Assembly: GCA_900316205.1 (NCBI GenBank)
Contig: ONBX01000003.1
Location: forward strand, 16,009-80,008
Origin: an uncultured Eubacteriales bacterium
Lineage (GTDB): Bacteria > Bacillota > Clostridia > Oscillospirales > Oscillospiraceae
Reading direction: 5' to 3'
DNA: 64,000 nucleotides
The notes beneath the pieces were generated by a model. That model did not search any database. It saw only the letters and a program-made list of their open reading frames with translations, and had not been told where the DNA came from. The translations under genes were made by a program, and so were the position numbers. Shown piece by piece: positions 448 through 51,303 of this stretch; position 1 is the first letter of the stretch; every line of letters starts with the position of its first letter.

Positions 448-600
448 ATCGATGATCCATTCGCCATCGGCGCCTCCCGGAGAATCTGCGCTCTGATCTC
501 GTCACTTTTTCTTGCAATACACAAAGTATTCCTGCAAAAAAGTGCCTTCATCAGAACACAGATTCTCTCAGGATTCGCTCTTGCCGAATGAATCACCGAT
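448..600. repeat. Long palindromic element, copy 1 (constant core, covarying arms)
   Basis: About 150 nt able to fold into one long hairpin. The inner stem is AATAC-acaaa-GTATT at about 516-530. A core at 499-546 is nearly identical to cores at 45261-45306 and, inverted, 51197-51244. The outer arms pair with each other (GAGAATCTG at 479-487 with CAGATTCTC at 559-567; CATTCG near 459 with CGAATG near 585) but differ from the arms of the other copies. The right arm overlaps the last ten or so codons of the ABC exporter. Confidence 0.8.
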
Positions 601-2325
601 TTCCTGGGCTCTGCACAGCGCGGCGTAGGCGCCGTTTCTGGCCATCAGCTCCTGATGGCTGCCCATTTCGATGATATGTTCTCCCTCCACCACGGCGATA
701 CAGTCGGCATGCCGTACGGTGGAGAGCCGGTGCGCGATGATGATGGTGGTGCGGCCCACGCTCAGCTCGTCCAGGGACTTCTGGATCCGCTGCTCGGTAA
801 CGGTGTCCAGGGCGGAGGTGGCCTCGTCCAGGATCAGCACCTTGGGATTTTTGAGAAAGACCCGGGCGATGGAGAGGCGCTGCTTCTGCCCGCCGGAGAG
901 CATCACGCCCCGCTCGCCGATGTAGCTGTCGTAGCCCTCGGGCATGGCCATGATCTCCTCGTGGATCTCGGCCCGTTTGGCGGCCTCCTCGATCTCGGCA
1001 TCGGTGGCGTCGGGCCGGCCGTAGCGGATATTCTCCCGCACGGTGCCGGCGAACATGAACACATCCTGCTGCAAAATGCCGATGTTCCGGCGCAGGGAGC
1101 GCTGGGTGACCGCGCGCACGTCCTTGCCGTCCACGGTGATGCTGCCCTCGCACACGTCGTAAAAACGGGGGATCAGCTGGCAGAGGGTGGTTTTGCCGCC
1201 GCCGGAGGGGCCGACCACCGCAAAGCACTCTCCCGGGGCGATGTGCAGGTCCACATGGCTCAGCACCGGGACGCCGTTATCATAGTGGAAGCTCACGTCG
1301 TTCACGTCGATCCGGCCCTGGATGGGACCCAGCTCCCCGGCGTCCGGGGCGTCCTGAATTTCCGGCTCCGTGCGCATGATCTCCAGGAAGCGGGAAAAGC
1401 CCGCCGTGCCCTGCATGTACTGCTCGGCGAACATCACGAGCTTCCGCAGGGGAGAGACGAAGGTGGAGACGTAGAGGGTGAAGGTCACCAGATCCACATA
1501 GTCCATCCGCCCTGCCATGATGAGAAGGCCGCCCACGGTGATGACCAGCACCTGCAGCACCCCGGTGGTAAACTCCATCCCGCTCATGTAAAGGCCCATG
1601 GAGCGGTAGTATTCCACCTTGGCGCCCTTGAAGACGGCGTTGGCGGAGTCGAACTTCTCCACCTCCATGTCCTCGTTGGCAAAGGCCTTGGCGGTGCGCA
1701 CGCCGGAGATGCTCGACTCAATGGCGGCGGTGATCTCGGCGGTTTTGCGCTTGACCTCCACATTGGCCGTGCGCATGCGAAAGCGCTGGCTCAGGGTGAA
1801 CCACAGGGTGAGGGGCAGCACGATGGCCAGCACCAGGGCCAACTGCCAGCGCAGGGTGAACATGATGATGAGGGAGCCCAGAATGGTGAGGGAGCAGATG
1901 ATCACATTCTCCGGCCCATGGTGGGCCAGTTCCGTCACCTCGAACAGATCGCTCACCACCCGGCTCAGCAGCACGCCGGTGCGGTTTTTGTCAAAGAAGG
2001 AGCAGGAGAGATCCTGCATGTGGGTGAAAAGGTCCCGGCGCATGTCCGCCTCGGTGAGCACGCCCATCTTGTGGCCCAGCACCGTAATGATGTAATAGAG
2101 CACCGCCTTGAGTACATAGGCCCCGATCATGACGCCCATCACCACAAAGAAAGTGGTAAAGAGCTTTTCCGGGAGATAGCGGTACATGGACTGGCGCGAC
2201 ACATAGGGGAACACCAGGTCGATGACGGCAACGGCCAGGGCGCAGACCATGTCGATGGCAAAGAGCTTTTTGTGGTGGCCGATGTATTGGATGAAGAGCT
2301 TCAAGGGCCTGTCCTGGTAGTTCAT
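568..2325 (-). CDS. ABC transporter, fused permease and ATP-binding protein (MsbA/LmrA-type exporter)
   Basis: 585 residues, the usual length of a half-size ABC exporter. The N-terminal 300 or so residues form an ABC type-1 transmembrane domain with six hydrophobic segments. The nucleotide-binding domain has Walker A GPSGGGKTT (about 376-384), the Q-loop, the signature LSGGQKQR, Walker B VLILDEATSALD and the H-loop AHR. Such proteins act as homodimers or heterodimers in the membrane and export lipids, peptides or drugs; the substrate here is unknown. The start ATG overlaps the rnhA stop by 4 nt, suggesting translational coupling. The last ten or so codons (DSFGKSES at the end) lie inside a palindromic repeat, so the C-terminal tail is probably element-derived. 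Confidence 0.9.
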   Translation of the reverse strand: MNYQDRPLKLFIQYIGHHKKLFAIDMVCALAVAVIDLVFPYVSRQSMYRYLPEKLFTTFFVVMGVMIGAYVLKAVLYYIITVLGHKMGVLTEADMRRDLFTHMQDLSCSFFDKNRTGVLLSRVVSDLFEVTELAHHGPENVIICSLTILGSLIIMFTLRWQLALVLAIVLPLTLWFTLSQRFRMRTANVEVKRKTAEITAAIESSISGVRTAKAFANEDMEVEKFDSANAVFKGAKVEYYRSMGLYMSGMEFTTGVLQVLVITVGGLLIMAGRMDYVDLVTFTLYVSTFVSPLRKLVMFAEQYMQGTAGFSRFLEIMRTEPEIQDAPDAGELGPIQGRIDVNDVSFHYDNGVPVLSHVDLHIAPGECFAVVGPSGGGKTTLCQLIPRFYDVCEGSITVDGKDVRAVTQRSLRRNIGILQQDVFMFAGTVRENIRYGRPDATDAEIEEAAKRAEIHEEIMAMPEGYDSYIGERGVMLSGGQKQRLSIARVFLKNPKVLILDEATSALDTVTEQRIQKSLDELSVGRTTIIIAHRLSTVRHADCIAVVEGEHIIEMGSHQELMARNGAYAALCRAQEIGDSFGKSES

Positions 2326-2759
2326 GCATATTTCTCCCGTTCCGCCACGGCGAGGGCGTCGCAGCGGTTGTTGAATTCATTGTCTGCGTGGCCCTTGACC
2401 CAGTGATAGTGCATCTCGTGCTGCCGCGTCAGATCCAGCAGCATGGTCCAGAGGTCCGGGTTCAGGGCGGGCTTTTTGTCGCTTTTGATCCAGCCCTTTT
2501 TCCGCCAGCCCCAGGCCCAGCCCTTTTCCAGGGCGTCGATCACGTATTTGGAGTCCGACCAGAGCTCCACCACGCAGCTCTCCCGGAGGGCCAGCAGGCC
2601 CTGGATCACGGCGGTGAGCTCCATGCGGTTGTTGGTGGTCATCTCCTCTCCGCCGGAGAGCTCCTTTTCCACCCCGTTGTAGCGCAGGATCGCGCCCCAG
2701 CCCCCGGGCCCGGGATTTCCGCTGCAGGCCCCATCGGTGTATAGTTCGACTGTTTTCAT
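2322..2759 (-). CDS. rnhA: Ribonuclease HI
   Basis: 145 residues from the internal ATG, the normal length of RNase HI, which cleaves RNA in RNA-DNA hybrids. It has LYTDGACSGNPGPGG (first catalytic Asp), the ELTAVIQGL helix with the catalytic Glu, WSDSKYVIDAL (third acidic residue) and VKGHADNEFNNRCDALA with the His loop and last Asp. AAGGAAGG lies 6 nt upstream of this ATG and comes from the edge of an upstream repeat. No in-frame stop exists upstream until well past the DUF559-like ORF, so an extended fusion is also possible. The stop overlaps the ABC exporter start. Confidence 0.95.
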   Translation of the reverse strand: MKTVELYTDGACSGNPGPGGWGAILRYNGVEKELSGGEEMTTNNRMELTAVIQGLLALRESCVVELWSDSKYVIDALEKGWAWGWRKKGWIKSDKKPALNPDLWTMLLDLTRQHEMHYHWVKGHADNEFNNRCDALAVAEREKYA

Positions 2760-3287
2760 ATTATCCTTCCTTATAAGCTCCCCTGCGCAAGGGGTCTTGG
2801 GTCTGGCGCGAAGCGCCTGAGGGGTCGTCCCGTTTGCCCCGTTCCTTACAAGCTCCCCTGCGCAAGGGGTCTTGGGTCTGTCAACCGCCGTCTCACGCAA
2901 GGCGGATGACTGAGGGGTCGTCCCGCCCCCCTCTGTCCTCTGCTTCACGATCCAATCAATATAAGTACATACACCCTCAAAGTTATCCCTAAGCTGATTG
3001 TTGGCGATCCGAAGGACTTCCAGGTCATACCCTTCCAGGTACTGCGTTCTGCAAGCGTCTTTTTCCTGTCCTTCCTCTTCGTAGTGCTGTGAACCGTCCA
3101 GTTCAATGATAAGTTTTGCTTTCGCGCAATAAAAATCTGCGATATATCTCCCCAGCACCTTTTGCCGGTAAAAGCGGACAGGGTAAAGACGAAGAAACTG
3201 ATACCAGAGCTTTCCCTCTTCCTTGGTCATCTCTTTTCGCAGGTTTCTGGCCAAGGGAACAAGCTCCCGATTCCCTTTTCGATCCAT
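2322..3287 (-). CDS. DUF559-like endonuclease-fold ORF running in frame into rnhA
   Basis: From ATG 3287 the frame encodes about 120 residues typical of DUF559 (MDRKGNRELV..., LWYQFLRLYP, RFYRQKVLGRYIADFYC, LIIELDGSQH, LRIANNQL). This is a Vsr/PD-(D/E)XK-like fold often seen as a small stand-alone protein. The acidic residues of DFYC and ELDGSQH fit the predicted active site. No stop follows. The frame reads through two half-copies of the abundant GC-rich repeat, giving TPQSSALRETAVDRPKTPC-type sequence, and enters RNase HI. It would be a 321-residue fusion if no internal start were used. The ATG is preceded only by a weak AGAGAAAG-type Shine-Dalgarno site. Nuclease activity is an inference. 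Confidence 0.65.
   Translation of the reverse strand: MDRKGNRELVPLARNLRKEMTKEEGKLWYQFLRLYPVRFYRQKVLGRYIADFYCAKAKLIIELDGSQHYEEEGQEKDACRTQYLEGYDLEVLRIANNQLRDNFEGVCTYIDWIVKQRTEGGGTTPQSSALRETAVDRPKTPCAGELVRNGANGTTPQALRARPKTPCAGELIRKDNMKTVELYTDGACSGNPGPGGWGAILRYNGVEKELSGGEEMTTNNRMELTAVIQGLLALRESCVVELWSDSKYVIDALEKGWAWGWRKKGWIKSDKKPALNPDLWTMLLDLTRQHEMHYHWVKGHADNEFNNRCDALAVAEREKYA
2766..2935 (-). repeat. Two half-copies of the abundant two-hairpin repeat (family A)
   Basis: Each has an AGCTCCCCT-GCGC-AAGGGG type hairpin, then a variable hairpin (GGCGC-gaa-GCGCC in one; CCGCC...GGCGG in the other), then TGAGGGGTCGT. The distal edge, read on the minus strand as AGCTTATAAGGAAGGA, supplies the rnhA Shine-Dalgarno site. 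Both copies are translated in the DUF559-RNase HI frame. Confidence 0.8.
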
Positions 3288-3298
3288 CTTTCTCTTCC

Positions 3299-3665
3299 CT
3301 ATATGCTCCCCGTGTAAGGGGTCTTGGGTCAGTTCTAGTGCGCACACTGGGACGGAGGGGTTGTTAAGCTTTCTCAAAACGCTCAATCTCGTTTCGGCAG
3401 ACAACCCCTCCGTCACGGCGCTTGCGGGGGACACGCCGTGCCACCTCCCCTTGCTCAGGGGAGGTTTTTTCCCTGTTCCGTTCCTTGCCAGCTCCCCTGC
3501 GTAAGGGGTCTTGGGTCTGCCAGCCGCCGTCTCACGGAAGGCGGCTGACTGAGGGGTCGTCACGTTGTCTCATTTCACGCTATCAGGACTGAATGCACAA
3601 CCCCTCCGACATCCGGCTCGCGGGGGATCGCCGGATGCCACCTCCCCTTGCTCAGGGGAGGTATT
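3299..3665. repeat. Two full-length two-arm family A repeats (about 3299-3472 and 3482-3665)
   Basis: Each has a left arm (CTCCCC...GGGG hairpin, variable hairpin, GAGGGGTTGT), a central spacer of about 40 nt, and a right arm (ACAACCCCTCCG, variable hairpin, CACCTCCCCTTGCTCAGGGG). Variable stems seen here are CAGTG/CACTG, CGGCG/CGCCG, CCGCC/GGCGG and ATCCGGC/GCCGGAT. They fill the gap between the DUF559-like ORF and the next small gene. A third repeat type, AATTCCGAACTCCGAAC, follows at about 3680-3712 and overlaps the 3' end of the next gene. Confidence 0.8.
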
Positions 3666-3708
3666 TTCCATGTCCCGCAATTCCGAACTCCGAACTCCGA
3701 ATTTCCCC

Positions 3709-4080
3709 TCAGATCCCCCGCTCGTAGCGGTCCTTCAGCACCCGGTATTCCGCCCGGTCGATGAGGCCGATCTTCAGCCAGTCCTCCAGCTGGGCGATGC
3801 GCCGGACCTTGTCCCGCTGAAAATGGTCCTCCCCCGTCTGCTCACAGACGATGCAGGCCGCCTCCGGGGCGGAGAAGTCCCGGTGGGCGACGCTGGACAC
3901 GGGCCGCTTCATGGAGGGAGCGGGACGGTGCAGCTCCACCGTGGGGGTCCGCCGCTGGGCGGTGGTCTGGACCCTTGCCGCGGGCTTTCCGGTCTGTTTG
4001 CTCCCATTCCCGCCTTTCACCTTCTTGATGATGGCAGGCAGGACCCAGAACAGCAGGATCAAAACGATAAGTCCTCGCAT
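3709..4080 (-). CDS. Small membrane-anchored protein with SHOCT-like C-terminus
   Basis: 123 residues. One N-terminal transmembrane segment (LIVLILLFWVLPAII) is followed by a basic, Thr/Pro-rich linker. The C-terminus QLEDWLKIGLIDRAEYRVLKDRY has the spacing of a SHOCT helix pair (L..L...GlI...EY...K...). AAAGGAG lies 6 nt before the ATG. The preceding gene on the same strand ends 30 nt upstream and carries a similar C-terminus, so the two form a pair downstream of gyrA. Function unknown; it is probably exposed on the cytoplasmic side. Confidence 0.65.
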   Translation of the reverse strand: MRGLIVLILLFWVLPAIIKKVKGGNGSKQTGKPAARVQTTAQRRTPTVELHRPAPSMKRPVSSVAHRDFSAPEAACIVCEQTGEDHFQRDKVRRIAQLEDWLKIGLIDRAEYRVLKDRYERGI

Positions 4081-4110
4081 AGTATCTCCTTTCCGGCTCC
4101 CAGGAGCCCT

Positions 4111-4701
4111 TCAGTGCTTTTCCTTTATTATTCGTTCTCGCATGGCCTGGGCTTCCTTTTTGTCGATCAGGCCGTTTTGATAATAGCTCTCGATCTGTTC
4201 CAGGCGCTTCCTTGCGTCCGGCGCACCTTTTTCAGCAACAGTCTGTTCCCACTCCTGACGGCGGCGGGATTTCAGGTTGCCATAAATGAGATAGCCGAAA
4301 CACCCCAGTGCTGTCAGTGCCCAGGCTAAAAACACAAGCAGAGTCTCCAGATTTTCCGATCCGTCGGAAAAAATCTTCCACGCCGCAAACCCAAGCAGCA
4401 GCAGGAGGGGAAGAAGCTGCAGCAGAAAGCGAAGCGACCATTTTCTTTTTCCCTGAATCCAATCCCCATTCAATACTATGTCGATCGGATTTTCCAGGCG
4501 GCCCCATTTTTTTCCTTTTGGGGCTATTTTCCCCACGATCCAGAACAGGGGCAGAGCCAAAAGAATATAGAGGCCCCCGGCCATAAGACAAGCCAGAACC
4601 GCATTTCTGTTTCCGAGGACGAGCTCAATTCCCAGAATCGATCCAAGCAGGATGAGAGGAACCAAAAAGGGGAGAGCGCGTTTCCCGTTTCCGTTTTTCA
4701 C
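4111..4701 (-). CDS. Multi-pass membrane protein with SHOCT-like C-terminus
   Basis: 196 residues from a GTG start with GGGGGAG 6 nt upstream. It has about four hydrophobic segments: LPFLVPLILLGSILGIELVL, ILLALPLFWIVGKI, FLLQLLPLLLLLGFAAW and LLVFLAWALTALGCFGYLIY. A basic segment follows, then RLEQIESYYQNGLIDKKEAQ, a SHOCT-type ending like that of the next gene. It begins 25 nt after gyrA stops and is likely in the gyrBA transcript. No enzymatic motif is seen, and the function is unknown. Confidence 0.65.
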   Translation of the reverse strand: MKNGNGKRALPFLVPLILLGSILGIELVLGNRNAVLACLMAGGLYILLALPLFWIVGKIAPKGKKWGRLENPIDIVLNGDWIQGKRKWSLRFLLQLLPLLLLLGFAAWKIFSDGSENLETLLVFLAWALTALGCFGYLIYGNLKSRRRQEWEQTVAEKGAPDARKRLEQIESYYQNGLIDKKEAQAMRERIIKEKH

Positions 4702-4726
4702 GCCGTTCTCCCCCTTTCCGGTTTTC

Positions 4727-7234
<2,508 letters not shown>

Positions 7235-7249
7235 CTTCCAATATTTCCT

Positions 7250-7470
7250 TCCTTATAAGCTCCCCTGCGCAAGGGGAGCTGGCGCGAAGCGCCTGAGGGG
7301 TCGTTCCGCTTGCCCCTTTCCTTGTAAGCTCCCCTGCGTAAGGGGAGCTGTCAGCGAAGCTGACTGAGGGGTCGTCCAGCTTGCCCAAAATCGCTCCGTC
7401 AGGGCTGAATGTACAACCCCTCCTCCCCAGTGTGAGCACTGGGGCACCTCCCCTTGCACAGGGGAGGTCA
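7250..7470. repeat. Half and full family A repeats between gyrB and gyrA
   Basis: A half-copy (7250-7315, variable stem GGCGC/GCGCC) borders the gyrA leader. A full copy (7320-7470) has left variable stem GTCAGC-gaa-GCTGAC and right stem CCCCAGT/ACTGGGG. The inner TGAGGGGTCGT and ACAACCCCTC motifs are complementary. Together they occupy nearly the whole gyrB-gyrA gap. Confidence 0.8.
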
Positions 7471-7477
7471 AGCGGAA

Positions 7478-11024: not shown

Positions 11025-11035
11025 ATCAATAATCC

Positions 11036-11362
11036 TTCCTTATAGGCTCCCCTGCGCAAGGGGTCTTGGGTCTGGCGCGAAGCGCCTGAGGGGTCGTCCC
11101 GTTTGCCCCGTTCCTTATAGGCTCCCCTGCGCAAGGGGAGCTGTCAGCCGCCGTCTCACGCAAGGCGGATGACTGAGGGCTTGTAATGTCGTCCCTATTC
11201 CTTATAAGCTCCCCTGAGCAAGGGGAACTGTCCCAGTGCGCACACTGGGACTGAGGGGTTGTTAAGCTTTCTCAAAACACCCTGGCTGGGCAGACAACCC
11301 CTCCGTCATCCGGCTCGCGGGGGATCGCCGGATGCCACCTCCCCTTGCTCAGGGGAGGTTTT
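11036..11362. repeat. Three family A repeats between dnaN and the S4 gene
   Basis: Half-copies at about 11036-11105 (stem GGCGC/GCGCC) and 11112-11185 (stem CCGCC/GGCGG) are followed by a full copy at 11200-11362 (left stem CAGTG/CACTG, right stem CATCCGGC/GCCGGATG). They fill the 346-nt gap. No gene is seen. The first copy's edge gives the S4 gene its Shine-Dalgarno site. Confidence 0.8.
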
Positions 11363-11370
11363 TCACTCAT

Positions 11371-12483
11371 TCAGTCTCCCGCTCTGAGACGGACAGGCAG
11401 GATCATGAAGGTGAACTTGTCGCTGCCGTCGGCGGCACGGATCACGCAGGGAGAGGAGGAGGTGTTCAGGCACAGCTGCAGGCTGTCGGTGTCGGCGGCC
11501 TTCAGCGCGTCCATGAGATAGCGATCGTTGAAGCCGATCTCCAGACCGTTGCCGTTTCCTTCGCAGGTGCAGATATCCTCCGCCTTGCCGAAGGGAGTGA
11601 CACAGTAGCAGTCGATGGTGCCGTCGCCAAAGCCCATGCGCACAGGGCTGCTGTTCTTCTCACTGATGATGAGGGACACGCGGTCGATGACCTGCATGAG
11701 CTCGCTGCGCTCGGCCTGGATCACCGTGCGGAACATCTCGGGGATGGAGCGGCGGTAGTTCAGAAATTCACCTTCCAGCCGGCGGGAGATGATCACCGTG
11801 CCGCCGATGAAGAAGGAGATATGCTTGGCGCCAACGGCGATCTGGGCCGGCTCCTCGGTATCTTCACAGACTCGCACCACATCGGAAAGGGTAGAGCCAG
11901 GCACCACAAAGCTGCAGTTTTCCATTTTGGCATTTTCCAGCTGCTCGCTGCGCTTGGCAAGCCGGTAGCCATCCACGGAGACCAGGGTCAGGGTATCGCC
12001 CTCCACTTCGAAGAGGGTGCCGGTGTAGATGGGACGCACATCGGTGTCCGCCACGGCGAAGATGGTCTGGTTGATCATGCTGCTCAGAATGTTCTGGGGC
12101 AGGGAAATGGTGTTGATGGCGTCCATCACCGGCATCTCCGGGTAATCCTCGGGGCTGATGCCCATGAAGTTGAATTCGCTTTTGCCGCACTTGACCTTCA
12201 CGCTGTTGTTCCGGTCCACGGTGACGGTCACAAAACCGTCGGGCAGACGGCGGATCATCTCGCCGAAGAAGCGGGCGCCCACCACAACGGAGCCGCCTTC
12301 CGCCACATCGGCCTGGATATTGGTATAGATGCCCTCTTTCAGGTCATAACCGGTGATCTTCACATCGGCTCTTGCCTCGATCAGCAGACCTTCCAGAGCG
12401 GGAATGGGGCTTTTGGACGCGGTCGCCCGGGAGGCGATGGCGCAGGCCGCCTGGAGCAGACCTTTTTCGCAGGTGAATTTCAT
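11371..12483 (-). CDS. dnaN: DNA polymerase III beta subunit (sliding clamp)
   Basis: 370 residues, the standard length of the clamp that tethers Pol III to DNA as a ring-shaped dimer. It begins MKFTCEKGLLQAACAIASRATASKSPIPALEGLLIEA and ends FMILPVRLR, matching the conserved C-terminal MPMR-type motif of the peptide-binding groove. GAGGAGGAAG precedes the ATG. It lies downstream of the candidate oriC, but dnaA is separated from it by about 650 nt of DnaA boxes and repeats. Confidence 0.97.
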   Translation of the reverse strand: MKFTCEKGLLQAACAIASRATASKSPIPALEGLLIEARADVKITGYDLKEGIYTNIQADVAEGGSVVVGARFFGEMIRRLPDGFVTVTVDRNNSVKVKCGKSEFNFMGISPEDYPEMPVMDAINTISLPQNILSSMINQTIFAVADTDVRPIYTGTLFEVEGDTLTLVSVDGYRLAKRSEQLENAKMENCSFVVPGSTLSDVVRVCEDTEEPAQIAVGAKHISFFIGGTVIISRRLEGEFLNYRRSIPEMFRTVIQAERSELMQVIDRVSLIISEKNSSPVRMGFGDGTIDCYCVTPFGKAEDICTCEGNGNGLEIGFNDRYLMDALKAADTDSLQLCLNTSSSPCVIRAADGSDKFTFMILPVRLRAGD

Positions 12484-34761: not shown

Positions 34762-34945
34762 CCCGACCAACCTCCCCTGTGCAAGGGGCCTTGGGTGTGT
34801 CGTCCGGCGATCTCCCGCGAGCCGGATGACGGAGGGGTTGTCGATCACGACGGAACGGCTGATCGAACGAGCGGGACAACCCCTCAGTCCCAGTGTGCGC
34901 ACTGGGACAGCTCCCCTTGCACAGGGGAGCTAATAAGGAAGGAGA
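34762..34945 (+). repeat. Full-length family A repeat feeding the tdk Shine-Dalgarno site
   Basis: Left arm CTCCCCTGTGCAAGGGG with variable stem ATCCGGC-type (CGTCCGGCGATCTC...GCCGGATGACG); right arm ACAACCCCTCAG, stem CCCAGTG/CACTGGG, then AGCTCCCC...GGGGAGCT. Its right edge (GGGGAGCTAATAAGGAAGG) is continuous with AAGGAG, 7 nt before the tdk ATG. Confidence 0.8.
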
Positions 34946-34950
34946 TTATT

Positions 34951-38167: not shown

Positions 38168-38470
38168 TCCTTTCCTTATAAGCTCCCCTGTGTAAGGGGA
38201 GCTGTCCCAGTGCGCACACTGGGACTGAGGGGTTGTCCCGTCGGTCTTCCTTATAGGCTCCCCTGTGCAAGAGGAACAGCGGGCTTCCGTCCACCCGACA
38301 ATGGCCCCCTTGCCTAAAGGGGGCTGTCAGCCGCCAGGCTGACTGGGGGATATTCCTTTCATCTTTGGACCCCTATCATGGGGGAAACGGAGCGATTAGG
38401 GGATCGCTCCCTACGCGGAGGATGGGATGCGGACGGCCAATGGCCATCCCTGCGCGGGGGGGCGAATCCT
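38168..38470. repeat. Family A and related repeats upstream of the M32 gene
   Basis: A half-copy at 38168-38240 (variable stem CAGTG/CACTG) borders the M32 leader. A degenerate copy (38250-38350, TCAGCC-gcca-GGCTGA stem) and short GCGATTAGGGGATCGCTCCC and GGCCAATGGCC hairpins follow. No gene is seen. Confidence 0.7.
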
Positions 38471-42726: not shown

Positions 42727-42755
42727 AGTATAGCACAGCCAAATCCCCGGGTCAA
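42727..42755 (-). promoter_or_regulatory. Promoter of the rpmG-rplA operon
   Basis: Minus strand TTGACC (42750-42755), 17-nt spacer, TATACT (42727-42732) with TGC extension. The leader of about 120 nt contains CTCACG-aaa-CGTGAG 20 nt before the rpmG start region. Confidence 0.8.
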
Positions 42756-42795
42756 CACTTTTTTGCGGAAAAATCCGGCTTTTTCAATCCTTTTT

Positions 42796-43055
42796 CCTCT
42801 TAGGCTCCCCTGTGCAAGGGGAGCTGTCGCGGCGCGTCTCACGCAAGCGCCGTGACTGAGGGGTTGTCCCGCCCGCCCCGTTCCGCTTAGGCTCCCCTGT
42901 GCAAGGGGAGCTGTCTTGGTGCGTCTCACGCAAGCGCCAAGACTGAGGGGTTGCCCCGCCAGCCCCGTTCCTCTTAGGCTCCCCTGTGCAAGGGGAGCTG
43001 TCTGCCGCCAGGCAGACTGAGGGGCCTTTTTCCGCTTAGGCTCCCCTGCCTGAGA
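42796..43055. repeat. Tandem array of family A half-copies with different variable stems
   Basis: Four units spaced about 85 nt apart, each starting TTAGGCTCCCCTG. Unit 1 stem CGGCGC/GCGCCG, unit 2 stem CTTGG...CCAAG, unit 3 stem GTCTGCC-gcca-GGCAGAC; unit 4 is cut short at 43050. The constant parts are near identical, the variable stems wholly different yet self-paired. It lies upstream of the rpmG promoter. Confidence 0.85.
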
Positions 43056-43084
43056 AAGGAAGAGGGAAGAGTGAAAAGTCAGCG

Positions 43085-43325: not shown

Positions 43326-43327
43326 GC

Positions 43328-43356
43328 TTGCAGGCCGGGCGGGAACATGCTATGAT
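43328..43356 (+). promoter_or_regulatory. folC promoter
   Basis: TTGCAG (43328-43333), 17-nt spacer, TATGAT (43351-43356), ATG 49 nt on. The AT-rich repeat ends just upstream, as at psuG. Confidence 0.65.
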
Positions 43357-43404
43357 ATATAAGAAGAAGTTTCCGAAGGAAACAGGCAAGGAGACACCAT
43401 TGGC

Positions 43405-44670: not shown

Positions 44671-44674
44671 GTGT

Positions 44675-44790
44675 TTTCCTTGCTTCCCCCTCAGGGGGAA
44701 GTGGCGCGAAGCGCCGATAGGGGCTGTACATTGACGAACACCCCCCTTCCGTCTCGCTTCGCTCGACACCTCCCCCGGAGGGGGAGGCAA
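44675..44790. repeat. Two-arm family A-prime repeat before ruvX
   Basis: CTTCCCCCTCAGGGGGAAG, stem GGCGC-gaa-GCGCC, GATAGGGGCTG, spacer, then inverted CACCCCCCTTCCG, stem TCTCGC-ttc-GCTCGA, CACCTCCCCCGGAGGGGGAGG. Same overall plan as family A. Its right edge is followed at once by AAAGGAG. Confidence 0.75.
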
Positions 44791-44818
44791 GAAAGGAGCG
44801 TGACTGCGTATCCGAATC

Positions 44819-45220
44819 ATGGCCATCGATTATGGCGACCAGCGCATCGGCCTGGCCGTCTCGGACCTGCTTGGCATGATGGCGGGGGAGGCCTGGACCA
44901 TGAACGAGTGGAACATGGAGCGGGCCAGCCTGCGCATCGCCGAGGAGGCGAAAAACCGGGAGGTGGGCACCCTGGTGCTGGGACTTCCCAAGAATATGGA
45001 CGGCACGGAGGGGCCCCGGGCGGAAAAGAGCCGGGCGTTCAAGGAACTGCTGGAAAAGGACACGGGGCTTCCCGTGGTGCTCTGGGACGAGCGCCGCAGC
45101 AGCATCGAGGCCCACGCCATCCTCCACGCCGCCGGCAAAAAAGAACGGCTCCACCGCAAGACCGTGGATGCCGTGGCCGCCTCCCTCATCCTGGAGGGCT
45201 ATCTGGGCAGCCGCGGGTAA
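44819..45220 (+). CDS. ruvX: RuvX/YqgF-family Holliday junction resolvase-like nuclease
   Basis: 133 residues from the ATG. IDYGDQRIGLAVSD (first catalytic Asp), VGTLVLGLPKNMDGTEGPRAE, LWDERRSSIEAH and KTVDAVAASLILEGYL (last Asp) are the YqgF RNase H-like motifs. In bacteria it is linked to 16S rRNA 5' processing and anti-recombination roles. The only good Shine-Dalgarno site (AAAGGAG, 44792-44798) is 20 nt from this ATG but 5 nt from an in-frame CTG at 44804. That CTG would give LRIRIMAIDYG, close to the family's MRILxIDYG, so the true start may be CTG. Confidence 0.88.
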   Translation: MAIDYGDQRIGLAVSDLLGMMAGEAWTMNEWNMERASLRIAEEAKNREVGTLVLGLPKNMDGTEGPRAEKSRAFKELLEKDTGLPVVLWDERRSSIEAHAILHAAGKKERLHRKTVDAVAASLILEGYLGSRG

Positions 45221-45359
45221 AGGAAGCTTCGGCGCATTGCGGATCCTTTGCGCTCTGCCTTCGTCACTTTTTCTTGAAATACACAAAGTATTCCTTCGAA
45301 ACAGTGCCATCGGCAGATCGCAAATGCCCTCGCAATCCGTGCTTGCCCCTTTGCCCGCG
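45210..45359. repeat. Long palindromic element, copy 3
   Basis: Core 45261-45306 (CGTCACTTTTTCTTG, AATAC-acaaa-GTATT, CAGTGCC). Paired arms: TTTGCGCTCTGCC with GGCAGATCGCAAA, ATTGCG with CGCAAT, and CGCGGGTAAAGG with CCTTTGCCCGCG. The left arm contains the last codons and stop of ruvX. Arms share pairing, not sequence, with copies 1 and 2. Confidence 0.8.
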
Positions 45360-45433
45360 CCTACCCTGGGCAGCCGACACTGACAGCGCGCGCAAAACAT
45401 ATTCATATATTTTAATGTAAAGGAGCGATACAC

Positions 45434-46309
45434 ATGTTCAACCTGCTCACCGGCGATGTAGCCGCCACCGCGGCTGCCGCCACCGAGGGCGCGAAGAAGT
45501 CCTTCTTCGAGATCCTGGGCGAATTCAAAATCGGCGAGATCTCCCTCTCCAGCGTTCTCTCCGCCATCCTGACTCTGGTGATCTGCTACATCATCATCAA
45601 GATCATCACCGGCCTGGTCAACAAGGCTCTCAACAAGTCCAAGAAGCTGGACGGTACCCTCCGCGGCTTCGTCACCTCCGCCATCAAGGCGGTGCTCTGG
45701 GTCATCGCCGCCATCATCGTGGCCAACGCCCTGGGCATCAACACCAGCTCCCTGGTGGCTCTGGTCAGCATCGTCGGCCTGGCTCTGTCCCTCTCGGTGC
45801 AGAACATCCTCTCCAACCTGTTCTCCGGCCTGACCCTGCTCATCACCAAGCCCTTTGCCTCCGGCGACTTCGTGGAAGTCGCGGGCAAGACCGGCATCGT
45901 CAAGACCATCGGCCTGTTCTACACCCAGCTGGACACCCTTGACAACATCGCCGTTTCCATCCCCAACAGCGACGTGACCGCCGCCGCCGTCAACAACTAC
46001 AGCCGCGAGGAGCTGCGCCGCGTGGACCGCACCTTCACCACCTCCTATGAGTGCACCACCGACGACGTGAAGGCCGCCATCGCCGACGCCATCGCCAAGG
46101 ACGAGCGGATCCTTGCCGATCCTGCCCCCTTCGTCCGCCTCATCGACTACAAGGGCAGCACTGTGGAGTACGTGGTGCGCGTCTGGTGCAAGAGCGCGGA
46201 TTACTGGGATGTGTACTTCAACCTCAACGAGAACGTCCGCGAGAGCTTTGCCGCCAAGGGCGTCAAGTTCAGCTACGAGCACGTCAACGTCCACATCGTG
46301 GAGAAATGA
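45434..46309 (+). CDS. mscS: Small-conductance mechanosensitive channel (MscS family)
   Basis: 291 residues. Three hydrophobic helices; the pore helix is LVALVSIVGLALSLSVQNILSNLFSGLTLLITKPFASGDFVEV, with the Gly/Ala packing typical of MscS TM3. The beta domain follows (VKTIGLFYTQLDTLDNIAVSIPNSDV) and then the C-terminal alpha/beta domain. It gates under membrane tension, complementing mscL in this window. AAAGGAG upstream of the ATG; its own terminator follows. Confidence 0.94.
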   Translation: MFNLLTGDVAATAAAATEGAKKSFFEILGEFKIGEISLSSVLSAILTLVICYIIIKIITGLVNKALNKSKKLDGTLRGFVTSAIKAVLWVIAAIIVANALGINTSSLVALVSIVGLALSLSVQNILSNLFSGLTLLITKPFASGDFVEVAGKTGIVKTIGLFYTQLDTLDNIAVSIPNSDVTAAAVNNYSREELRRVDRTFTTSYECTTDDVKAAIADAIAKDERILADPAPFVRLIDYKGSTVEYVVRVWCKSADYWDVYFNLNENVRESFAAKGVKFSYEHVNVHIVEK

Positions 46310-46343
46310 CGCGAGTTTTGAGAATCCAGTTTTGAGATTTGAG

Positions 46344-46380
46344 GAACCAGGGGATATGCTTCGGCATATCCCCTGGTTTT
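46344..46380 (+). terminator. Terminator of mscS
   Basis: AACCAGGGGATATGC-ttcg-GCATATCCCCTGGTTTTT, a perfect 15-bp stem with a stable tetraloop. Confidence 0.93.
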
Positions 46381-46496
46381 TCGCAGAGGCCGCAGCTCTC
46401 GACGTCCTGATTTTCTGCTCCTTCCGTCAATTCTACTTCCGGGGGCTGTCCGTTTTTCCGAAAGGAGCGTATGGTATACGCAAAGGAGATGAGTCC

Positions 46497-47387
46497 ATGG
46501 ATCTTGTCAAAATCGGGAAATACCTGGCAGCAAAGAGAAAAGCCCTGGGCCTTACCCAAAGGGAGTTGGCCGAGCAGCTTGGCATGAGCGACAAATCTGT
46601 TTCCAAATGGGAGCGGGGCGTCTGTCTGCCGGATGTGTCCTTATATGAGGAATACTGCGCCGCGCTTGGCATCAGCCTTCACGAATTTCTGGCAGGGGAG
46701 GACCTGGCAAAAGAGGACCTGGCCAAACAGGCGGAGGAGAATCTGCTCCAGGTCGCCGCGGACAGCAAGGCCAGTCAGAAAAGACTAAAGGCGGTGATCC
46801 TGGCTCTTGCCCTCACGGTGCTGCTTGTGACCTTCCTGGGCGTCCTGTTTCTCTTCCGGGGGAAAGGGCAGGTGAATTCTCTTGTCCCCTTGGACCGGAA
46901 CAGCACGGAAATGAAAACCGCGGAGCTGCTCTCTGGCGTGAATGGTGCCTTTCTCTTCCGCTACCGGACGGACGATGCCTTCCGCCGTCTAACTGTGACG
47001 AGCTCAGAATATCGCGCCGGGGAAGAGATCAACAGGGAAAACCACGTGATCTCCTATGAATCCGTCGGCTCCCCCTCCGAGGGCATGATCGCCCTGGTGC
47101 CGGATTTTGAGCGCTTCACGGTAAAGCTGGTGATCGCGGACCAAAACGCCAAGCTCTCCACCGAAGTCCCCATCCTGGACAAGGTGGAGGATCGGACCTA
47201 CTATGGCAGATCCGCGTCCCCGCTCGGGGCAGAGACGGAGATCCGCTTTGACGAGGAGCAGCTGATCCTGGCCCTGCTCTATGACGACGACGTCATGCAC
47301 GTTTTGAATCTGCGGGAATTTGCGGAAGGCAATATCCCCGCGGATAACGACGTCATGTACTTCTTTTCCGTATGTTTTGAGAAATAG
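46497..47387 (+). CDS. XRE-family membrane-anchored transcriptional regulator
   Basis: 296 residues from the ATG at 46497 with AAAGGAG upstream. The N-terminal helix-turn-helix IGKYLAAKRKALGLTQRELAEQLGMSDKSVSKWERG is at about 5-40. A charged linker, one transmembrane helix (AVILALALTVLLVTFLGVLFLF, about 100-121) and an extracytoplasmic beta-rich domain of about 170 residues follow. It probably binds DNA at the membrane and senses something outside. A target is not evident; the sigma/anti-sigma pair downstream may be related but has its own promoter. Confidence 0.8.
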   Translation: MDLVKIGKYLAAKRKALGLTQRELAEQLGMSDKSVSKWERGVCLPDVSLYEEYCAALGISLHEFLAGEDLAKEDLAKQAEENLLQVAADSKASQKRLKAVILALALTVLLVTFLGVLFLFRGKGQVNSLVPLDRNSTEMKTAELLSGVNGAFLFRYRTDDAFRRLTVTSSEYRAGEEINRENHVISYESVGSPSEGMIALVPDFERFTVKLVIADQNAKLSTEVPILDKVEDRTYYGRSASPLGAETEIRFDEEQLILALLYDDDVMHVLNLREFAEGNIPADNDVMYFFSVCFEK

Positions 47388-47418
47388 CCGATGCCCACAA
47401 GGCCGCCCCTTGTACGGC

Positions 47419-47480
47419 GCTTGCTTCCCCCATCGGGGGAAGTCCCCGGTGCGCACACTGGGAGATAGGGGCTTCCACAT
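47419..47480. repeat. Family A-prime repeat
   Basis: CTTCCCCCATCGGGGGAAG, then CCCCGGTG-cgca-CACTGGG, then GATAGGGGCTT. Imperfect second stem. Confidence 0.7.
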
Positions 47481-47528
47481 TGCACAGCCGGGCCTTGTCT
47501 CGCGGGGGGACAAGGCCCCGGCACTTTT

Positions 47529-47557
47529 TTGCAATCTTTTTCGGATCGTGATAGAAT
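47529..47557 (+). promoter_or_regulatory. Promoter of the sigma/anti-sigma pair
   Basis: TTGCAA (47529-47534), 17-nt spacer, TAGAAT (47552-47557). It looks like a housekeeping promoter. No ECF-type AAC motif was recognised, so autoregulation is not obvious. Confidence 0.55.
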
Positions 47558-47652
47558 CTCCTGCGATGATTTTCAAAAAAACCCGATCCTTCCGCAACTT
47601 TCTCTCACAAACCGTTTCTTATAGAGTGAGGCCTCAGAAGGGAGTTGGAAAC

Positions 47653-48210
47653 ATGGATGACACAAAAATCGTGGATCTGTATTGGGCACGCTCCGAGGAT
47701 GCGATCTCGGAGACCGCGGCGAAGTACGGCGGTTACTGCCGTACCATTGCGCTTCATATCCTGGCCGATGCCGGCGAGGCGGAGGAATGTGTCAACGATA
47801 CCTATATGAATGCGTGGAACTCCATGCCGGAGCACAGGCCGAGCCGGCTTGCCCCCTATCTCGGCAAGCTGACGCGCTGGCTGTCCCTGAATCGGCTGCG
47901 GGAAAAGAACAGCCTGAAACGCGGGGGCGGGGAACTGCCCGCGGTGCTGGATGAGCTGGCCGAGACCCTGGATTCCGGCCTGGACGCCCAGCGAGAGCTT
48001 GAGATCAAAGAACTCAAGCTCGCCCTCCGCCGCTTGCTGGACAAGCTGGGCAAAAGCGAGCGGGATGTGTTTCTTGCCCGATACTGGTATGCTGCCTCTC
48101 TCTCCGAGATCGCGGAGAAAAGCGGATTCACGGAAAGCAAGGTCAAGTCCATGCTGCACCGGACAAGAAAGAAGCTGCTCCAGGAGTTGAAGGAGGAAGG
48201 ATTGTGTTAA
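47653..48210 (+). CDS. ECF-type RNA polymerase sigma factor
   Basis: 185 residues. Region 2 spans AISETAAKYGGYCRTIALHILADAGEAEECVNDTYMNAWNSMP, with the DTYMNAW segment typical of sigma-70 region 2. Region 4 spans LDKLGKSERDVFLARYWYAASLSEIAEKSGFTESKVKSMLHRTRKKLLQEL, a helix-turn-helix. It directs polymerase to an unknown regulon. The downstream gene starts 7 nt before its stop and is a likely anti-sigma factor. Confidence 0.9.
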   Translation: MDDTKIVDLYWARSEDAISETAAKYGGYCRTIALHILADAGEAEECVNDTYMNAWNSMPEHRPSRLAPYLGKLTRWLSLNRLREKNSLKRGGGELPAVLDELAETLDSGLDAQRELEIKELKLALRRLLDKLGKSERDVFLARYWYAASLSEIAEKSGFTESKVKSMLHRTRKKLLQELKEEGLC

Positions 48211-49283
48211 ACAGCGAAAAAACCATGTTCGCCCTGAACGACGTAAAGGACGAACACCTGGAAAGCGCCCGCGCCATGCTGGGATATCAGACAGGAAAAA
48301 GAAAGCGCCGGTTCGGAAAAAAGCGGATCATCGCCTTTGCCCTGGCGGCGGCCCTTTTGATGGGACTGGGTGTGACCGCTTACGCCGTTGGTGTTCACGG
48401 CGGCTTTTTCCGCAATGCTTTTGGCACTGGCGTTCCGGGGCGTGAAGGAAAGTCGGTGGATGTCACAGACCCGGAGGGGAATGTTATTACAGTGGAGCAG
48501 TATCCGGCGGAAGAGCGCGCGGACATGGAAGAGGGCCGGGCGGAGGAACTCATCGGCGCTTACGTCTCCGCCATAGGGCAGAGCGTCACGCTGGGGGACT
48601 ATTCCTTTACGGTCCGTGAGGTCGCCGTGGATGAAAACGGAAACGGAGCTGTCACGGTGGATATCGAAAATCCCAAAGGGCACGGCCTGACGCCGGAAGG
48701 GGGCTTTGTCGGGGATGCGGTCCCGGATCCCTGGTTTGGCTATTCCGTCCATGGCAGCAAAGGCACACGGATCTCAAGTCACGACCGCGCCGCCGCAGAG
48801 GGGTATTCCGAGACCCATATCTCTTTCGTTTACAGCATCACGCCCGCTCAGCCGCTGGCGCCGGAGGAGGATATTATCCTCCGCTTTGGCGTGTATTCGA
48901 AAGACAACAGCCAGGAGGAAGCGGAGATCACCATCCCCGCGGCGGAACGCATCCCCACAGTCGGGTATTCGACAGAAGGCCTGACGGCCTGGATTTCCCC
49001 GATCGGCATGCGGCTTTGCTTTGAGGATGCGTATAACGATGGCAAGTATGAGGAATATTTGATCCGGGAGCTTGTCATCGTCTATCAGGACGGCGGAAGC
49101 TATGTGGTGAAAAACGCAGACACGGTGAACTATATGAGCGCGGTGCTGGATCCGGAGGATCGAGGGGTCCAGCAGATCACCTTCAATCGCCTGGTGGATG
49201 TGGATACCATTCAGGAGATCCGCCTTCGCGTCATCCACAACAGCACCCACGGAGAAACAGAAGCAAGCTACACCATATCATAA
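48204..49283 (+). CDS. Putative anti-sigma factor with transmembrane anchor (DUF4179-like)
   Basis: 359 residues from GTG with AGGAGGAAGG upstream, overlapping the sigma gene by 7 nt. The cytoplasmic N-terminus (about 1-40, FALNDVKDEHLESARAMLGY) should bind the sigma factor. One transmembrane helix (IIAFALAAALLMGLGVTAYAV) and a large extracytoplasmic beta-rich domain of about 290 residues follow. This is the layout of clostridial DUF4179-type anti-sigma proteins. The signal sensed is unknown. No zinc motif of the ZAS type (HxxxCxxC) is present. Confidence 0.8.
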   Translation: MLNSEKTMFALNDVKDEHLESARAMLGYQTGKRKRRFGKKRIIAFALAAALLMGLGVTAYAVGVHGGFFRNAFGTGVPGREGKSVDVTDPEGNVITVEQYPAEERADMEEGRAEELIGAYVSAIGQSVTLGDYSFTVREVAVDENGNGAVTVDIENPKGHGLTPEGGFVGDAVPDPWFGYSVHGSKGTRISSHDRAAAEGYSETHISFVYSITPAQPLAPEEDIILRFGVYSKDNSQEEAEITIPAAERIPTVGYSTEGLTAWISPIGMRLCFEDAYNDGKYEEYLIRELVIVYQDGGSYVVKNADTVNYMSAVLDPEDRGVQQITFNRLVDVDTIQEIRLRVIHNSTHGETEASYTIS

Positions 49284-49299
49284 AGGGACGACCTGGGTA

Positions 49300-49510
49300 C
49301 GCAAAACCTCCCCTGCGCAAGGGGAAAAGCGCCAACGTGCTGCCAGTGGCAGGAAAAGGCGACCCGCAATCTCCGCAGCGGTCGAAAACCGGAGGATCAG
49401 CGTAAGCCCGAACGGTTTTTCGGGCACCGCAAGGCGGACAGGTGTCAGCCGCCGATCTTCCACGAGGCGGATGACGGAGGGGGCCGTTCCCACACAGTTC
49501 CCCCTCTCCG
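49300..49510. repeat. Divergent family A-type repeat region
   Basis: CCTCCCCTGCGCAAGGGG at 49307-49324, then a central stretch with CCGAACGGTTTTTCGGGCACCGCAAGGCGG, then CAGCCGCC...GGCGGATGACGGAGGGGG. A related central stretch occurs at about 23686-23725. The remaining bases up to spoIVB hold no clear gene or promoter. Confidence 0.5.
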
Positions 49511-49641
49511 TTTTTCAAGCAAAAATTCCCAAAGCCCGCCGCGCCGCGCTTTTTCGGCACAGCGAAAACCTTCCAACGGAAAAATCCCCGTTCGCGCACA
49601 TACTGGTCTCGTGCCAATTTTGTGCGCGGAGGGGGATTTTT

Positions 49642-50634
49642 ATGAAAAAAAGCATTTTGACGCTCCTGACCGGCCTGCTTCTTTCGGCTGCCCTGCCGGT
49701 GACGGCCTTTGCCCAGGAGCTGATCGTGGGCGGCCAGGCGGTGGGCATCCGGGTGCGCACCGAGGGTGTGCTGGTGTCCGGTACCGCCCCGGTGGAGACC
49801 GCCGGGGGCAGCGCGTCCCCGGCGGAGGAGGCGGGCATTCAGGAAGGGGACCGGATCCTTGGCGTAAACGGCCGGACGCTTCACGGTGCGGCGGAGCTCA
49901 TTGCCGCCGTGGGGGAGCTGGACGGCGATCCGGTGGAGCTGGAGATCTGCCGCGGGGAGCAGCGCCTGCAGCGAGAGGTGCAGCCGGCGCTCTCGGCGGA
50001 GGGACGATGGATGCTGGGCATGTGGCTGCGGGACGCGGTCACCGGCATCGGCACCGTCACCTTCTGTGATCCGGAGACCGGGGTCTACGGCGCCCTGGGC
50101 CACGGGCTCACCGATGAGGAGCTGGGGACCCAGGTCCCCCTGGAGACCGGCACCATCACCGAGGCGGAGATCTGCGGCGTCACCCCCGGCTCCGCCGGCG
50201 CGCCCGGGGCGCTGAACGGGGAATTCGGCAGCGGCCGCATCCTGGGCACCGTGGACTACAGCGGCAGCTGCGGCATCTACGGCACCGCGGAGCGGGCTCT
50301 CGGCAGCTTCACGGCGGAGGTGGGCCATGTGCAGACCGGCCCCGCCAGCATCCTGGCCACGGTGGACGGCCGGGAGGTGCGGGAGTTCGCGGTGCAGATC
50401 ACCCGGGTCTACCGGGACGGAAACGGGGAGCATGTGATGCTCTCGGTGACGGACGGAGAGCTGCTGAACCTCACCGGCGGCATCGTCCAGGGCATGAGCG
50501 GCAGCCCCATCCTCCAGGAGGGAAAGCTGGTGGGCGCGGTGACCCATGTCTTCGTCAGCGACCCCAGCCGGGGCTATGGCCTCAGCATCCAGGACATGCT
50601 GGACGCCGCCGGCATCCGGGAGCAGGCGGCGTGA
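49642..50634 (+). CDS. spoIVB: SpoIVB-type serine peptidase (S55 family)
   Basis: 330 residues, start ATG with GGAGGGGG upstream. A signal/anchor helix (ILTLLTGLLLSAALPVTAFA) is followed by a PDZ domain (about 50-110, AGIQEGDRILGVNGRTLHGAAELI) and the S55 domain. The S55 domain has the catalytic His in YGALGHGLTD and Ser in GIVQGMSGSPILQ; the Asp is likely in VFVSDPSRGYG. SpoIVB is secreted from the forespore and cleaves SpoIVFA to activate sigma-K processing, so it supports an endospore former. Shorter than Bacillus SpoIVB. Confidence 0.9.
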   Translation: MKKSILTLLTGLLLSAALPVTAFAQELIVGGQAVGIRVRTEGVLVSGTAPVETAGGSASPAEEAGIQEGDRILGVNGRTLHGAAELIAAVGELDGDPVELEICRGEQRLQREVQPALSAEGRWMLGMWLRDAVTGIGTVTFCDPETGVYGALGHGLTDEELGTQVPLETGTITEAEICGVTPGSAGAPGALNGEFGSGRILGTVDYSGSCGIYGTAERALGSFTAEVGHVQTGPASILATVDGREVREFAVQITRVYRDGNGEHVMLSVTDGELLNLTGGIVQGMSGSPILQEGKLVGAVTHVFVSDPSRGYGLSIQDMLDAAGIREQAA

Positions 50635-50639
50635 GCGTG

Positions 50640-50900
50640 AAAGAAGAGGGAAGCGTCGGCTCGCAGGGCGTGATCCCCTGATCGCTCCGCTTCCCGGTCC
50701 AGTCATCCTGAGCCTTGGCGAAGGATCTCGCCCCCGGCGCGGGGTCACGTTATCCGGGTGCCGAGATAGATCTCGCCCGGCGCCGTCGGGATCCTTCGTC
50801 GGCGAAGCCTCCTCAGGATGACAGGGTGGGAGGCGCGGCAAGTTGAGCGCCCCTGGCGGAGGGGCACATCACGATGCGCCCGCCAATGACTTCCCCAGCA
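50640..50900. repeat. Family B repeats downstream of spoIVB
   Basis: An inverted pair: GTCATCCTGAGCC...GCGAAGGATCTCGCCCCCGGCGCGGGG (about 50702-50745) and GCCGTCGGGATCCTTCGTC...CCTCAGGATGACAGG (about 50780-50825). The arms are complementary, so the pair could fold back over about 120 nt. No gene is seen. Confidence 0.65.
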
Positions 50901-50910
50901 GAGGAAGCAC

Positions 50911-50959
50911 AAAAAGGTTCGCCGAATTCGTGCATTCTGCGAATTCGACGAACCTTTTT
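50911..50959. terminator. Long hairpin, terminator-like in both directions
   Basis: AAAAAGGTTCG-c-CGAATTCG, loop, CGAATTCG-a-CGAACCTTTTT. A related hairpin is at 62018-62060 (GTTCGGCAAACTCG...CGAATTTGCCGAAC). Confidence 0.75.
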
Positions 50960-51135
50960 CTCGCTTTTGTTCACATGCTGTCGGAGGCCCCCTATCGGCC
51001 TTCGGCCACTTCCCCCGGAGGGGGGAAGCAAGGGCTGCGGGCGCCGGGACGGAAATCGTCCTTCCCTCAGCGAGGTGGCAGCCGCCGTATCACGGGAGGC
51101 GGCTGACGGATGAGGGAGAGGACTGGATCTGTTTT

Positions 51136-51303
51136 CTAAGTAAACGATGATGAAATCGGCAAGAGCGAATCCCGAGAGAATTTGAGTTCTGATGAAGGCA
51201 CTTTTTCGCAGGAATACTTTGTGTATTTCAAGAGAAAGTGACGAAATCAGGGCTCAAATTGTCCGGGAGGCGCCGTAGGCGATTTGATCAGCGCTTACCT
51301 AAG
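51136..51303. repeat. Long palindromic element, copy 2 (inverted)
   Basis: Core 51197-51244 is inverted relative to copies 1 and 3 and nearly identical to them. Paired arms: GAGAATTTGAG with CTCAAATTGTC; GATGAAATCGGC with GCGATTTGATC; CTAAGTAAACG with GCGCTTACCTAAG. About 165 nt in all. It is 120 nt past the stop of the minus-strand binding-like gene. An A-prime repeat (50983-51035) lies to its left. Confidence 0.8.

Follow-up and report, generated by a model that had tools for sequence, protein, structure and literature searches.

What kind of element is a palindrome whose centre stays almost constant and whose arms change from copy to copy, still pairing within each of them? The question is raised by a 64,000-nt stretch of DNA (hereafter, the window) from an uncultured Eubacteriales bacterium of the family Oscillospiraceae (GenBank assembly GCA_900316205.1, contig ONBX01000003.1, positions 16,009 to 80,008), in which an earlier note had described three elements of about 150-165 nt with a common core, and with arms pairing within each copy and differing between copies. 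The three elements were confirmed, and they belong to a family of miniature inverted-repeat transposable elements (MITEs) of the IS5 type, which have a covarying body and one structurally constrained strand. This suggests that a one-strand hairpin shape, either RNA or single-stranded DNA (ssDNA), is preserved while the sequence varies freely. Taken as a whole, the reading favored here is that of an IS5-type MITE carrying a selected single-strand fold, the form of which is probably RNA, and we give it a probability of roughly 55%.

Copies were first collected by means of the core, which biases the early collections towards it; the covariance model R1, built from 47 of the copies that were less than 90% alike, is less biased. 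The arm covariation proposed in the earlier note was borne out both in the alignment fitted to R1 (A3, 101 rows, including three reverse-strand duplicates) and in an alignment made from sequence only (A2, with A1 being its reverse orientation). The RNAalifold tool gave 50 pairs for A2, 42 of which showed two-sided compensated changes (-53 kcal/mol), and 42 pairs for A1, with 37 compensated (-20 kcal/mol). For A3, which as a fitted alignment leans to the model, two-sided changes were found in 49 of the 50 pairs (shuffled mean 39.5), 93.3% of the cells were paired (65.7% after shuffling), and covariation reached 0.674, compared with 0.189 ± 0.006 after shuffling and no more than 0.160 after sliding. 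The resulting fold is a rod of about 160 nt composed of helices P1-P5, with a nearly fixed apical hairpin (loop UUUGU) and with conserved asymmetric internal loops, i.e., GAGAGC on the 5' side, GAAGGC opposite GACGAA, and GCAGG opposite UCAAG. Conservation peaks in the centre of the element, the ends being more variable than the core, and 17 of the 61 unpaired positions are at least 85% conserved. The apical stem itself also changes, as indicated by the core variants CATAC/GTATG (in locus L202, found by an end-based search) and GGTAC/GTACA (in one copy of locus L135). The letters CUGAUGA...GAAA of the folded strand were considered as a hammerhead, and this was rejected, as part of them pair and covary.

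If the symmetry of double-stranded DNA were the sole cause of the pairing, G-U and A-C mispairs should be equally frequent, since that symmetry treats both strands alike. This was checked on 94 rows, i.e., the 101 rows of A3 without the three reverse-strand duplicates and four truncated or odd rows. On the strand named by the core, 312 G-U cells were counted versus 48 A-C cells, and 150 A-G versus 16 C-U. Reducing the rows to a set non-redundant at 85% (76 rows) left 252 G-U versus 34 A-C, with 37 columns versus 2. Helices P1-P4 agree in this asymmetry. Moreover, when the strand was named by the core alone, it folded more stably than its complement in all 94 non-redundant copies (out of 227 found by the core; median difference -21.6 kcal/mol), in 47 of 47 copies in A2, and in 93 of 94 when the inner part was taken by itself; stretches drawn at random from these loci gave a difference between strands with a median of 6.4 and a 95th percentile of 17.1, either way. 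With DNA parameters, the named strand was more stable in 122 of 122 non-redundant copies. It is therefore one strand, the same across the examined copies, that does the folding, under a structural constraint acting over deep time. The earlier note had left a choice between selection on a hairpin and a mechanism which builds palindromes around a mobile core; the covariation stands, and palindrome building is disfavored by the conserved asymmetric loops together with the strand asymmetry.

The mobility of the family is documented by its target sites. Among 302 full-length copies (as defined on a model of 161 positions), 300 had usable flanks, and in 129 of these the 4-nt flanks were identical, compared with a mean of 17.8, and a maximum of 28 in 500 trials, for shuffled partners. 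The flanks follow the consensus YTAR (mostly TTAA, TTAG, and CTAA), which is the reported target duplication of IS5 (PMC10359306). An element of this length is too short to hold a transposase gene. Over the model, nine copies do not differ at all, and nine loci of genome G058 share one score of 168.9 bits. As for the hairpin targeting terminators that had been envisaged earlier, the mobile part is supported by target duplications and by ends like those of insertion sequences (ISs), and terminator targeting concerns a few copies within a general YTAR-like target: L085 and L127 each interrupt a CTTCCCC-TTGA-GGGGAAG hairpin within its TTGA loop, as does L060 with one mismatch.

Two kinds of smaller palindromes were observed near copies of the own genome or resembling their ends. 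Runs of several short palindromes interrupt or adjoin the loop of own-genome copies in L199 (about 655-865), L204 (about 505-572), and L205 (about 395-520); they have sequence in common and may be mobile palindrome arrays of another kind. Palindromes of 27 nt, consisting of the two terminal repeats without a body, were found in L200 (486-512) and L201 (393-419), and are perhaps collapsed hairpins.

ISs encoding transposases with the PF01609 and PF05598 domains are present in the genus, and two of them share their ends with the MITEs. The 1135-bp IS of L206 (genome G059) has ends of the GGCAACACCGC type and the 1223-bp IS of L209 (G015) ends of the GGAAACGCTGA type; both encode a PF05598+PF01609 transposase and are bordered by TTAA on both sides. 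Compared with the MITE ends over 18 positions, the best ends of these two ISs show 1 and 0 mismatches, and their other ends 4 and 3, respectively. A third IS, in L210 (G039), has MITE-like ends and begins at the first base of the locus, with the left flank absent. The NCBIfam model IS5_4 (cut-off 140) scored 327 and 295 for the L206 and L209 proteins and 311 for that of L210. Two of the main end types thus have a named transposase family; no IS with the GTAAACG end type of the window was found, and the IS ends matched the two former types only. Exact cores numbered none in G059, one in G015, and 26 in G039, and the first two counts indicate that the IS and many MITEs are not always present in one genome. 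The window's own genome gave no PF05598 match; its single DDE_Tnp_1 gene (L197) was considered as a partner and rejected, with no such end within 5 mismatches and short chance matches only. Pairs of convergent ends separated by over 1 kb occur among the collected loci in L077, in L100, and three times in L135, where a pair spanning 1,439 nt, taken as a candidate autonomous element, turned out on reading to be two separate MITEs. In G045, G054, and G058, no autonomous element was seen by eye among the matches listed by the end search. In 46 of 60 transposase loci, R1 detected no body, the best score there being 14.1 bits (E 0.29). Hence, the body is no remnant of an IS left by internal deletion, which is not a requirement for all MITEs.

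In other families of the order, the R1 match is often limited to positions 32-138, i.e., to an inner part of about 105 nt. Twenty stretches of the order were taken, mostly with such inner-only matches, and 16 were folded; the inner-only matches (own-family G140 left out) carry other outer stems, among them GCAGTG...CACTGC-like ends, which occur as a pair in L527, L528, L529, and L531, whereas L530 shows only the right-hand one. In the inner helices from five other families, G-U prevailed over A-C by 41 to 4 (15 rows) and 25 to 2 (9 rows), and by 18 to 1 in the six rows less than 85% alike; weak adjacent second matches and the own-family contig-end L538 were excluded from these counts (a 14-row set with them gave 38 versus 2). 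Since the asymmetry is also seen where the outer stems are different ones, the strand-specific fold is independent of the IS5-type ends, and the wobble asymmetry shows one strand constrained in structure over deep time across different outer stems. In L533, L534, L535, L526, and L540, a second, weaker match (28-43 bits) adjoins the first one in the opposite orientation, forming an inverted dimer.

Since the outer stems and ends of the inner core differ between lineages, the core may ride different transposases. A bolder version of this idea, which we find rather doubtful, is that of a mobile module of about 105 nt, RNA or ssDNA, whose folded strand is required for its own spreading and which takes over the ends of various transposons. 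If true, it would be a selfish structured nucleic acid using transposon ends as interchangeable vehicles, and the success of a DDE element would hang on the folding of a strand.

The window's genome contains 24 exact cores and five with one mismatch, and within the genus exact cores were found in 37 of 61 genomes, with up to 54 per genome. A core scan of named genomes returned at least 108 stretches, and the 80 rows listed were records of metagenome-assembled genomes, titled Oscillospiraceae, Ruminococcaceae, Clostridiales, or Clostridia, and in one case "uncultured bacterium". Using R1, matches were found in 153 of 300 genomes and 72 of 106 genera of the family (E ≤ 0.001), in 93 of 295 genomes of the order, 76 of them outside the own family, and in five of 299 genomes of the phylum (at 1e-5), three of which are outside the class and weak; the own genome is included in the genome counts at each rank. 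Up to nine candidates per genome were scored, and the R1 copy numbers are therefore lower bounds. Palindromes with CAAGG...CAACGC around an apical stem (L515, L516, L517, and L520; R1 scores of 40-59 bits) were seen in distant families of the phylum; they may be remotely related or palindromes of another origin, and were not counted as members. Three pattern scans of viral contigs found no element, and neither plasmids nor phages gave a match with element 3 of the window as the query.

The earlier note had recognized no named RNA with this core, and indeed no Rfam family reached its gathering score on the elements, either in the window or in 20 loci with diverged copies. Below the threshold, element 3 resembled microRNA hairpins only (best mir-8517, E 0.024), and the three Rfam matches in the 20 diverged-copy loci were all off the elements. 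The S10-Clostridia leader (RF03136; gathering score 35.1) was found near elements in L145 (1131-1212, minus strand, 41.8 bits) and L139 (2102-2186, minus strand, 38.9 bits). In the open-access literature searched, no naming of this element was found.

In the favored reading, transposases of the IS5 family move the MITEs in trans; P1, the outermost helix, serves as the terminal inverted repeat, and the 4-nt YTAR target is duplicated on insertion, as the flanks of the family show. The selected form would be RNA arising from read-through of the element, and the fold would be needed by lineages that keep spreading, and not by each copy that has landed. The inner core of about 105 nt would act as a conserved module, for which the observed differences of outer stems and ends may reflect exchange between transposons.

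Several results weigh against this reading. No clear promoter was found when sigma-70-like sites upstream of 297 copies were compared with the mirrored side (4 versus 2, 10 versus 8, 29 versus 15, and 80 versus 69 at ≤1, 2, 3, and 4 mismatches); the excess of 29 versus 15 has an uncorrected p of 0.049 at one of four thresholds. Inside the elements, such sites (≤3 mismatches) numbered 11 on the folded strand versus 21 on the other among 302 copies. The T-tract expected after the 3' end is absent (a mean of 3.09 T in the 12 nt past the 3' duplication versus 3.19 on the other side, 297 copies), and thus the hairpin does not qualify as an intrinsic terminator. No bias of orientation to naive open reading frames (ORFs) was noted, the upstream ORF being co-directed in 36 of 79 copies (p 0.50; 28 copies inside long ORFs were set aside and those without an ORF on both sides skipped). 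The nearly fixed helix P5 shows the reverse of the asymmetry (1 G-U, 4 A-C), and for the opposite-strand structure of A1 the counts (80 versus 28) go in the same direction only without one wobble-dominated column, with which they are 80 versus 73 (columns 24 versus 6, p 0.0014). R1 was, moreover, built from core-found copies. As the asymmetry of P1 is that of P2-P4, the fold extends over the whole strand, a finding that fits a transposition intermediate no less than RNA.

The level at which selection acts also bears on the favored reading. A contrast between copies and lineages which looked decisive when cells were counted (private G-U:A-C 10:8, shared 22:1) became weaker when events were counted (16:7 and 5:1). 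With 302 copies clustered at 95, 93, and 90%, private events were 18:13, 27:16, and 39:22, and shared ones 6:1, 9:1, and 18:5; the private ratio differs from the deep one (p < 1e-4), and private and shared ratios showed no significant difference (p 0.23, 0.14, and 0.30). The balance of pair-breaking to pair-keeping changes distinguished private from shared ones at 90% only (p 0.029; otherwise 0.43 and 0.47). Selection on spreading lineages rather than on single copies is, therefore, only suggested.

Many of these observations suit an alternative in which the selected single strand is DNA, folding during transposition, replication, or transfer and recognized by a protein, as attC sites are. The asymmetric fold spans the transposon from end to end (P1 alone has 113 G-U versus 18 A-C), the lack of a clear promoter, of an ORF-orientation bias, and of a T-tract fits equally well, DNA parameters likewise favor the named strand, and the hint of a constraint at the level of lineages rather than copies agrees with it; the authors describing the motif MRSC-65-2, in the accessible part of their paper, raise a DNA form for their own motif (PMC11109978). 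The recurrence of the core in elements with other outer stems speaks against it, as do, by impression, the conserved loops rich in G-U and G-A, which are RNA-motif-like. Furthermore, IS5-type DDE transposases are not known to act on folded single strands. On balance, we consider the DNA form rather unlikely. A host-beneficial regulatory RNA, or a stabilizer of 3' untranslated regions, spread by transposition in the manner in which ERIC and Correia act on mRNA stability, would explain why 79 of 107 placed copies lie between naive ORFs (median distances of 82 and 40 nt; the remaining 28 being inside long ORFs), and published MITEs do act on transcripts (PMC10969869, as far as its accessible text goes). 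The absence of an orientation bias, and private changes nearer to neutral than the deep pattern, make such a role improbable. Slightly less credible again is an ordinary MITE, the symmetry of which would come from transposase-fitted ends and hairpin-templated repair (quasi-palindrome correction), with no selected structure. The IS5-type ends and duplications agree with it, and palindromic correction is known in general; it fails, however, to predict the excess of G-U over A-C and of A-G over C-U, the conserved unpaired loops, and the named strand winning in nearly every copy for the inner part, which is not a terminal repeat. The earlier note had offered a structured RNA, a mobile hairpin, and a nucleoid or replication signal as alternatives. 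The evidence points to a mobile hairpin of which one strand is under selection as a fold, the RNA form being the conjectural part; "RNA" and "mobile" thus do not exclude each other.

Bacteria carry many small palindromic repeats, which, as we see it, are often taken for DNA debris that folds as RNA by accident. Integron attC sites are sequence-variable palindromes recombined as a folded single strand, and the palindromic elements of the REP/RAYT and IS200/IS605 systems make no target duplication; the element described here differs from both groups in having inverted-repeat ends and 4-nt duplications. It resembles IS5-type MITEs in its IS5-family-like ends, in the 4-nt YTAR duplication, and in being too short for a transposase, and is unlike them in that its centre is most conserved, its body is strand-specific and covarying, and its ends vary more than its core. 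BOX, ERIC, and Correia, which occur in hosts other than those considered here, are functionally comparable, being likened by description and not by sequence. They are described as small and mobile, and as giving transcripts with a stable fold (PMC10969869, PMC3049150); the available text of the BOX paper (PMC3049150) contains no wording in "compensat-" or "covari-". The nearest published motif found, again compared by description, is MRSC-65-2, with a long single stem, strong covariation, and often dozens of copies per genome; in the accessible part of that paper, some instances lie near a transposase gene, and the class is partly defined by inconsistent orientation to genes (PMC11109978). The likeness consists in the long covarying stem and the many copies. 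The UYCCGG repeat of that motif is missing from the named strand in 94 of 109 non-redundant copies of our element, the other 15 having a single occurrence; on the complement, 25 copies have it once and one copy has it twice. A further difference is that the partner IS family, the target duplication, and the folding strand of our element have been identified, together with its nearly fixed apical core. The kind of element is thus already known; the identified strand, the partner family, and the travelling core are new. An old question, whether such repeats fold because their ends are inverted or because they work as RNA or ssDNA, becomes testable in this way, and the strand-asymmetry test is general and applicable to other palindromic repeat families.

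In the window itself, the core AATACACAAAGTATT (≤2 mismatches) matches at 516-530 (+), 45278-45292 (+), and 51213-51227 (-), i.e., three times versus none in 100 dinucleotide shuffles. Element 3 is 86% alike to element 1 over 157 nt, in the opposite orientation, and 78% alike to element 2 over 126 nt. The coordinates are collected in Table 1.

Table 1. Features of the palindromic family in the window; the sequences of elements 1-3 were among those used for building the model (L008, L009) or are close to them.
Feature	Position	Strand	Basis
Element 1, full-length copy	444..604	-	covariance model, 166.4 bits
Apical hairpin core, element 1 (AATAC-UUUGU-GUAUU on the folded strand)	516..530	-	AATACACAAAGTATT search
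Element 4, diverged, different apical loop	15936..16097	-	covariance model, 71.4 bits, E 3e-17
Element 2, diverged copy	45206..45365	-	covariance model, 139.4 bits
Apical hairpin core, element 2	45278..45292	-	AATACACAAAGTATT search
Left CTAA target-site duplication, element 3	51136..51139		read from sequence; rule from the family flank test
Element 3, intact 159-nt copy	51140..51298	+ (best-folding strand)	covariance model 51139-51299, 175.5 bits
Apical hairpin core, element 3	51213..51227	+	AATACACAAAGTATT search
Right CTAA target-site duplication, element 3	51299..51302		read from sequence; rule from the family flank test

Element 3 has the terminal inverted repeat (P1) GTAAACG...CGCTTAC and a minimum free energy of -77.7 on its plus strand versus -57.2 on the complement; the edges given to it in the earlier note include the duplication, because CTAA stands on both of its sides. 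The corresponding energies are -88.3 versus -61.4 for element 1 and -79.0 versus -66.4 for element 2, with the folded strand named first. No clean 4-nt duplication was seen at elements 1 and 2 on reading their flanks. Element 1 overlaps the 3' end of a minus-strand ORF (568-2325), whose stop lies inside the element, and an 11-nt direct repeat, CTGGGCAGCCG, borders element 2 at 45203-45213 and 45366-45376, its left arm coinciding with the end of the upstream gene. Element 4 was absent from the earlier list and was found by the covariance model; due to too many gaps against the model it was left out of the folding tables. As for empty sites, G036, G004, and G006 lack element 2, and their aligned intergenic DNA is too diverged for a precise site; none orthologous to that of element 3 was seen among the matches listed, and the exact paralogous target hairpin CCTTCCCCTTGAGGGGAAGG was present in 2 of 522 loci, the two overlapping.

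Apart from this family, the window contains a named cis-regulatory RNA, malK-I (RF03069, 128.4 bits), at 60546-60728 on the plus strand. A second, G+C-rich family of hairpin repeats (GCTCCCCTGCGCAAGGGGAGC and relatives) is also present, with clustered copies at 2767-3686, 7236-7477, 11029-11383, 34797-34946, 38172-38338, and 42760-43012.

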